The notes beneath the pieces were generated by a model that was not told where the DNA came from, did not search any database, and saw only the letters and a list, made by a program, of their open reading frames with translations. Below, one piece after another: positions 16,816 through 17,701 of a stretch of DNA of 64,000 nucleotides. Source of the DNA: Salinarimonadaceae bacterium (GTDB lineage: Bacteria > Pseudomonadota > Alphaproteobacteria > Rhizobiales > Beijerinckiaceae); the NCBI GenBank assembly GCA_007693435.1, contig REDO01000062.1, positions 1 through 64,000 of the forward strand. Direction: 5' to 3'. Both the position numbers and the translations under genes were made by a program. Positions within the stretch are counted from its first letter, which is position 1. Every line of letters starts with the position of its first letter.

Positions 16816-17025
16816 ATGGAAACCGGCACGGTCAAGTGGTTCAACGATCAAAAGGGTTACGGCTTCATTCAGCCGGATAACGGCGGCAAGGATGTCTTCG
16901 TGCATATCTCCGCCGTTCAGCGCTCCGGCATGAACGGACTCGTCGAGGGGCAGAAGATCTCCTACGAAATCGAGGAAGATCGGCGCACGGGCAAGTCCTC
17001 GGCGGTCAATCTTCAGGCGGCCTGA
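16816..17025 (+). CDS. Cold-shock domain protein (CspA family)
   Basis: [38 protein letters not shown] with RNP motifs. Confidence 0.97.
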
Positions 17026-17072
17026 ATCGTCGGACGTCGCGAAGGCGATTGCCCACATTCGCATAAGGTTGT

Positions 17073-17099
17073 AAGCCGTCGCTCAACGAGCGGCGGCTT
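17073..17099 (+). other. Stem-loop between csp and infA (no T-run)
   Basis: AAGCCGTCGCTC-AAC-GAGCGGCGGCTT: 12-bp stem with one G-T pair; followed by CGTCGC rather than U-tract. Confidence 0.6.
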
Positions 17100-17123
17100 C
17101 GTCGCATTGATCAGGAGATCTGC

Positions 17124-17402
17124 ATGTCGAAGGAAGAGTTGATCACATTCGAGGGCGTCGTGACCGAAGTCCTCCCGGACGCCAAATTCCGGGTCGAGCT
17201 CGAGAACGGCCACGAAGTGATCGCTTACACGGCAGGCAAGATGCGCAAGTTCCGGATCAAGACGATCGCCGGCGACCGCGTGACGGTCGAGATGTCTCCC
17301 TATGATCTCGACAAGGGACGCCTCGTATTCCGTCACAAGGACGACCGCGGCTTCAGCGGTCCCCGTCCGCCCCCGCGCCCGGGCGGAGCGCGCCGCCGCT
17401 GA
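17124..17402 (+). CDS. infA: Translation initiation factor IF-1 family protein with ~20-aa Pro/Arg-rich C-terminal tail
   Basis: S1 fold [67 protein letters not shown] plus tail [20 protein letters not shown]. Confidence 0.93.
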
Positions 17403-17548
17403 GGCGGGTTGCTCCGAATTCCGCATTCCCCGCCCGATGACTGCCTGCCTTCGATCCGGGCAGTCGCGGCCTGAAATTCGCGCTTCCAGAATCAGGTGGA
17501 CGCGGATAGCCTTTCCACGTGTTCAACATAACGAAAGGAGGTGATCCA

Positions 17549-17626
17549 GTGTCTCATTGTCCGCACCTGCGGCTTCCTACGATCGCGACCTGGATTCTCG
17601 CTTCCGTCGAGGTCCGCGCCCTCTGA
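17549..17626 (+). CDS. Putative 25-aa small protein (GTG start) preceded by maximal Shine-Dalgarno
   Basis: AAAGGAGGTGATCCAGTG; translates to MSHCPHLRLPTIATWILASVEVRAL-stop; not in the supplied ORF track because of length. Confidence 0.4.
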   Translation: MSHCPHLRLPTIATWILASVEVRAL

Positions 17627-17668
17627 GTAGGCGTTGTCCCGGTCGAAACGAGCCGTGGTTGACAATGC

Positions 17669-17701
17669 GAAGGCCGCCTCTCAGGAGGCGGCCTTCTTTT
17701 T
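17669..17701 (+). terminator. Intrinsic terminator
   Basis: GAAGGCCGCCTC-TCAG-GAGGCGGCCTTC-TTTTT, 12-bp perfect stem; overlaps the last codons of the convergent TVP38-family gene. Confidence 0.9.

Follow-up and report, generated by a model that had tools for sequence, protein, structure and literature searches.

A CC2171-type RNA gene of Alphaproteobacteria with an extended Shine-Dalgarno sequence and a mini-ORF: a candidate ribosome-gated RNA

Within a 64,000-nucleotide stretch of DNA from a Salinarimonadaceae bacterium (positions 1 to 64,000 of contig REDO01000062.1, hereafter the window), a small transcription unit had been predicted that opens with a 16-nt perfect complement of the 3' end of 16S rRNA, continues with a GTG-started ORF of 25 codons, and closes with a 12-bp terminator. 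A unit of this kind raises the question of what so short an RNA would do with so extreme a Shine-Dalgarno (SD) sequence, and whether it is the peptide, the RNA, or the act of translation that has been conserved. We addressed this question by comparing the unit with its homologues in other genomes, by measuring the constraint on its ORF, and by testing its predicted helices for covariation. The ORF and the terminator, the latter followed by T-rich DNA, were both confirmed, and the coordinates of all features are collected in Table 1.

Table 1. Features of the CC2171-type unit, in window coordinates
Feature	Position	Strand	Evidence or remark
Putative promoter	17484..17523	+	weakly conserved T-rich stretch 49-51 nt 5' of the SD
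Whole RNA unit, RF01867 (CC2171 sRNA) homologue	17525..17696	+	full-length cmscan match, 17525-17694
Extended SD GAAAGGAGGTGATC, complementary to the single-stranded 3' tail of 16S	17533..17546	+	conservation in 54 loci
Mini-ORF, GTG start, 25 codons, MSHCPHLRLPTIATWILASVEVRAL	17549..17626	+	homologous ORFs in all 130 nonredundant loci and all 73 of the strict set
P1 5' strand CATTGTC (codons 3-5)	17555..17561	+	covariation with 17661-17667
P1b 5' strand GCGGCT	17569..17574	+	covariation with the stretch preceding the P1 3' strand
Internal anti-SD CTGGATTCTCGCTTCC, putative 16S 3' end mimic within the ORF	17590..17605	+	pairing with SD and spacer
P1b 3' strand AGCCGT	17651..17656	+	covariation with 17569-17574
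P1 3' strand GACAATG, just 5' of the terminator	17661..17667	+	covariation with 17555-17561
Intrinsic terminator, 12-bp stem 17669-17680/17685-17696, then TTTTTCTT	17669..17696	+	T-rich DNA after the stem

Family membership and genomic distribution

When the unit is scanned against Rfam at the gathering threshold, no match is observed; at a relaxed cmscan threshold, it aligns with RF01867 (CC2171) over the full length of the model (positions 1-159 of 159), with a score of 66.8 bits and an E value of 1e-13. This is the sole RF01867 match in the genome, and its score lies below the curated gathering score of 75 bits. A homologue from another genus of the same family (genome G011) scores 83.9 bits against RF01867, which is above the cut-off, and matches the window unit by BLAST with an E value of 1.9e-8. 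Thus, judged by these alignments, the unit is a CC2171 homologue that falls just outside the formal Rfam threshold. Both the P1 helix and the terminator are present in the RF01867 alignment of the unit. Comparison of the loci places the beginning of a conserved TTCAACAA block approximately 12 nt upstream of the SD, and the predicted transcription start probably lies at about 17523-17526.

The element was found by BLAST in 28 of 60 relatives, and a pattern based on its 5' block detected it in 163 of 298 genomes of the order and in 89 of 385 genomes of the class. In a phylum sample of about 210 genomes outside the class, the same search returned two one-mismatch matches, which is the level of a reversed-pattern control. 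The named carriers belong to the Hyphomicrobiales, Caulobacterales, Sphingomonadales and Rhodospirillales, and the element is almost always present as a single copy per genome. One complete genome of the same class (G339) carries two copies, at C1:805112 and C1:2922049, with the spacers GATCGA and GATCCG. A Defluviicoccus-type copy was also observed in a metagenome-assembled genome labelled Acidobacteriota (L094), which is probably mislabelled or contains a misbinned contig. The occurrence of the element in more than half of the genomes of the order, its conserved frame and stop, and its Rfam match bear out the original prediction of a small terminator-ended unit with an extreme SD and a mini-ORF.

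The nearest neighbours of 42 loci form 64 clusters among 84, with all four orientations represented, and no conserved co-oriented downstream gene, which would be the mark of a cis leader or attenuator, was found among the loci compared. Given that neither the neighbours nor their orientations are conserved, the element is, as far as its genomic contexts indicate, an autonomous gene across the Alphaproteobacteria and not a cis leader. In the window, 16816-17402 contains a cold-shock gene and then a gene for an IF-1 domain protein whose C-terminal tail is basic and rich in proline and arginine. This context had been pointed out as translation related, and domain matches confirm that both genes are real (Csp, PF00313; IF-1, PF01176). 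The pair precedes the element in few relatives only, the two genes occurring together upstream of it at only two other loci, and the neighbours in general are not conserved; the idea of a csp/infA operon was therefore rejected, and the linkage is incidental.

The extended SD and the mini-ORF

The 16-nt complement of the 16S 3' end, AAAGGAGGTGATCCAG, is present at 17534-17549. GGAGGTGATCCAG has one exact occurrence in the window and AAAGGAGGTGATC has one occurrence in the 3.65-Mb assembly, while simple arithmetic gives a chance expectation of about 3e-5 per 64 kb, both strands included, for an exact 16-mer. The 16S 3' end itself, ACCTGCGGCTGGATCACCTCCTTTCT, was verified in a genome of the same genus (G003) and was not found in the window's own assembly. 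Across 54 loci obtained by BLAST or with the covariance model, only one of the twelve bases AAGGAGGTGATC (17535-17546) varies, namely between A and G, and there G keeps a wobble pair with the 16S U. Positions 17533-17534 are G and A in 94-96% of these loci, and the base 5' of 17533 and the two bases 3' of the SD core are variable. The last three bases of the 16-mer, CAG, lie opposite 16S helix 45 and vary among relatives, placing them outside the conserved SD; with the G, the GTG start codon has already begun. Since the core is conserved while its flanks vary, the 16-mer is best understood as a 13/14-mer to which a variable CA and the start codon's G are attached. The conserved core GAAAGGAGGTGATC is complementary to the entire single-stranded 16S tail. 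In E. coli numbering, the conserved block is complementary to 16S rRNA from G1530, the first base past helix 45, almost to the 3' end. An origin as the remains of an antisense 16S gene was discarded, because the match stops at the helix 45 border and the ORF and helices are conserved.

At a start codon of fixed spacing from the SD, an ORF of 14-27 codons is present in all 130 nonredundant loci, whereas the other two frames of these loci range from 0 codons to open-ended. Likewise, in a strict set of 73 loci with more than 38% edit distance between them, frame 0 contains a 14-27-codon ORF in every locus, as against 14 and 11 loci for the other frames; shuffled sequences yield such an ORF in 25% of cases. 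The stop codons are TGA (103), TAA (42) and TAG (16), and the ORF starts with GTG or ATG, or with TTG in four genomes. These four (G345, G476, G574 and G653) are small, related genomes of one family, and their TTG occupies the same conserved start position.

The sequence of the encoded peptide behaves differently from the frame that contains it. In 35 independent close pairs, differences are distributed 60:71:59 over the three codon positions, and 31 synonymous changes are observed against 27.4 expected. For the 30 pairs with a homologous flanking gene, the differences by codon position are 32/39/29% in the ORF, compared with 17/12/71% in the flanking gene. With respect to the conservation check suggested with the original prediction, the SD core and the ORF are kept in relatives, and the substitutions show no synonymous excess. 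Peptide composition is wholly different between lineages. Motifs that recur within lineages (TWILASxEVRAA, EQPLSLS and HQSRA) coincide with the anti-SD, where CTGGATCnnnGCCTC reads T-W-I-L-A-S and GAGCAGCCTC reads E-Q-P-L, or with the P1 strands. These comparisons indicate that selection acts on frame and stop and not on peptide sequence. Of the properties expected of a dual-function sRNA, a short ORF under selection for translation is evident here from the conservation of frame and stop, and a functional peptide is not, as the comparisons gave no sign of amino-acid constraint. A fixed frame and stop around a neutral peptide suggest that the physical act of translating is what the RNA uses, and being translated seems to matter more than the peptide that is made. 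A type I toxin was also considered as the product and rejected, since the peptides range from acidic to basic and share no common hydrophobic pattern.

P1, P1b and the internal anti-SD

The two strands of P1 lie early in the ORF and directly ahead of the terminator, and those of P1b lie between them. In a swap test that compares each locus's own strands with strands swapped between loci, P1 has a z of -13.5 (-8.9 in the strict set) and P1b has a z of -13.5 (-11.7 in the strict set), while the controls range from -0.6 to +1.7, the last value being that of the P1b control. Different lineages carry compensating versions of P1, namely CATTGCC/GGCAATG, CAATGTC/GACATTG, CATTCTC/GAGAATG, GTGAG/CTCAC and CATGGTTCAG/CTGACCATG. 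This strong covariation indicates that codons 3-11 pair with the segment that precedes the terminator. A sense-strand match to 16S helix 45 that had been seen within the ORF, ACCTGCGGCT, is better explained by P1b, the 5' strand site of which often reads CCGCGG in relatives, and a CCGC-ACCT-GCGG hairpin proposed for the same unit proved not to be conserved. Downstream, a convergent VTT-domain gene (PF09335; 17681-18433, minus strand) ends at 17681 within the terminator stem, and so the terminator probably serves both strands.

The internal segment CTGGATT plus GCTTCC resembles the 16S 3' end. In its predicted pairing with the SD and spacer, 17549-17543 pairs with 17590-17596, a 3-nt bulge follows, and 17542-17537 pairs with 17600-17605. 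An SD-permutation test of this helix gives a z of -7.7 (-5.6 in the strict set). In a 34-row alignment, 88-97% of the SD:anti-SD cells are paired, a figure that is biased upward because the rows were picked for a CTGGAT-like motif, and nested minimum-energy folds pair at least 70% of the SD in only 34% of loci. Given this selection of rows, an SD strand that scarcely varies, and the little SD pairing found at sphingomonad loci, the evidence for the SD:anti-SD helix is weaker than that for P1. Seven sphingomonad loci (L066, L073, L079, L101, L109, L125 and L159) encode the peptide MSHGSVARSVKIPTEHIR, which is identical across several Erythrobacteraceae genera. Taken together with the little SD pairing in related sphingomonads, this identity suggests that the sphingomonad lineage may use a different lock.

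In the window, the modelled fold that hides the SD has an energy of -77.4 kcal/mol, beating shuffled sequences with a z of -4.1, and the P1 fold, in which the SD is mostly free, has an energy of -76.3 kcal/mol. By this calculation, the two folds are nearly isoenergetic. The SD:anti-SD helix crosses P1, so the two helices would either exclude one another or form a pseudoknot; they could coexist in the latter form instead of switching.

A ribosome-gated RNA and its alternatives

The reading that we favour, and that we hold to be rather probable, is that this autonomous, terminator-ended CC2171-type gene encodes a ribosome-gated bistable RNA, in which the mini-ORF serves to be translated rather than to supply a peptide. 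In one fold, the copy of the 16S tail within the ORF would hide the 14-nt SD and the spacer. In the other, codons 3-11 would pair ahead of the terminator through P1 and P1b, exposing the SD and offering 30S subunits the strongest possible complementarity, so that the subunits would compete with the internal mimic for the SD. An initiating ribosome would translate the 14-27-codon ORF, crossing and disrupting the internal anti-SD, and would stop approximately 40 nt before the terminator, ahead of the P1 3' strand. As candidate outputs in trans, the RNA in its changed state might expose the CCUC segment to other mRNAs, set its own stability, or hold 30S subunits. Starting from the homology, autonomy, SD boundary, frame and stop constraint, unconstrained peptide and covarying helices documented above, we infer that the gene is transcribed in this organism, that its ORF is really translated, that the RNA switches, and that it has a regulatory output in trans through freeing or hiding of the CCUC anti-SD or holding of 30S. 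A broader form of the proposal, to which we give slightly less than an even chance, is that of a class-wide RNA regulator for whose extended SD the real 16S tail and the internal mimic compete; the RNA would read 30S availability or initiation capacity and change state, and what is conserved would be translation of a peptide-neutral ORF.

Roles as a ribosome decoy or as a sensor of ribosome availability, both raised by the original prediction, are possible; a switch gated by the ribosome is favoured over a passive decoy by two findings, the crossing of helices that covary and the near equality of the two fold energies. A passive decoy would be an abundant RNA that binds 30S through its perfect SD and lowers the number of free ribosomes. 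Complementarity to the whole free 16S tail, a strong terminator and the structure of the RNA would all suit that role, but a stop codon in a fixed place and an internal anti-SD that hides the SD would be needless for it, and the frame of the ORF is strictly kept; we regard it as distinctly unlikely. The same anti-SD could instead serve a base-pairing sRNA, aimed at the SDs of mRNAs through its CCUC-rich segment and masked or cleared by its own SD and ORF. While the CCTC/CTTCC segment is conserved within the ORF and anti-SD-loop sRNAs are known in Alphaproteobacteria (PMC3927594, PMC12559287), the segment is accounted for by cis pairing with the SD, which is backed by spacer covariation, and this explanation is unlikely.

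The maximally translated micropeptide of the original prediction would be the functional product of a small mRNA whose SD is very strong. An ORF that is always open and of fixed length, together with the motifs recurring at the level of lineages, would be expected of such a gene. However, the codon positions evolve without amino-acid constraint, the third-position and synonymous excess that is normal in flanking genes is absent from the 35 pairs, composition changes entirely across lineages, and the recurring motifs fall on the anti-SD or P1 strands, making a peptide function very unlikely. A leader or attenuator of the downstream gene, suggested by an arrangement of short ORF, helices and terminator that recalls leader-peptide attenuators, is hardly credible, given that the gene downstream in the window runs convergently and that neighbours are so diverse among the loci. 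For CC2171, an orphan Rfam family so far, our results suggest a translated RNA with a peptide that is free to drift. If this is so, the family would be a widespread bacterial case, not tied to attenuation, in which translation acts as a physical signal, and its RNA would carry within itself a mimic of the 16S tail. The results also serve as a warning that an ORF can be conserved through an RNA function coupled to the ribosome, with no functional peptide involved.

Comparison with known systems

The CC2171 sRNA of Caulobacter reportedly goes back to Landt et al. 2008. RF01867 resembles the unit in its full-length alignment, P1 helix, terminator and 5' SD block. Its annotation describes a noncoding sRNA, whereas an ORF frame is conserved in the loci compared here, and the SD:anti-SD pairing of the unit is absent from the Rfam consensus structure. 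In the portions of the literature covered by our search, CC2171 appears as an sRNA in a Mesorhizobium listing and in an Rfam update. Two formerly predicted Caulobacter ncRNAs are translated according to Schrader et al. 2014, the text of which does not give their names. In the papers on sRNAs of Rhizobium, Bradyrhizobium, Bartonella and Caulobacter that our search covered, we found no account of such an anatomy or of this combination of features, the priority of which is uncertain.

Among dual-function sRNAs, rnTrpL of S. meliloti is likewise a small terminator-ended RNA with a very short ORF, which is translated (PMC10117765). Its origin is an attenuator and the peptide it encodes, peTrpL, has a function itself, whereas the gene described here is autonomous and its peptide sequence unconstrained. 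SmelA075/SmelA099 (PMC3927594) and SisA-D (PMC12559287) share CCUC-type anti-SD segments with the unit, but the anti-SD of the unit lies within an ORF and is predicted to pair with the extended SD of the same RNA. In the autoregulation of Flavobacteriales rpsU (bS21), an extended SD reads a property of the ribosome's 16S tail (PMC9976891), as we propose for the unit; rpsU is a ribosomal-protein mRNA of Bacteroidia, whereas the CC2171-type unit encodes no conserved protein.
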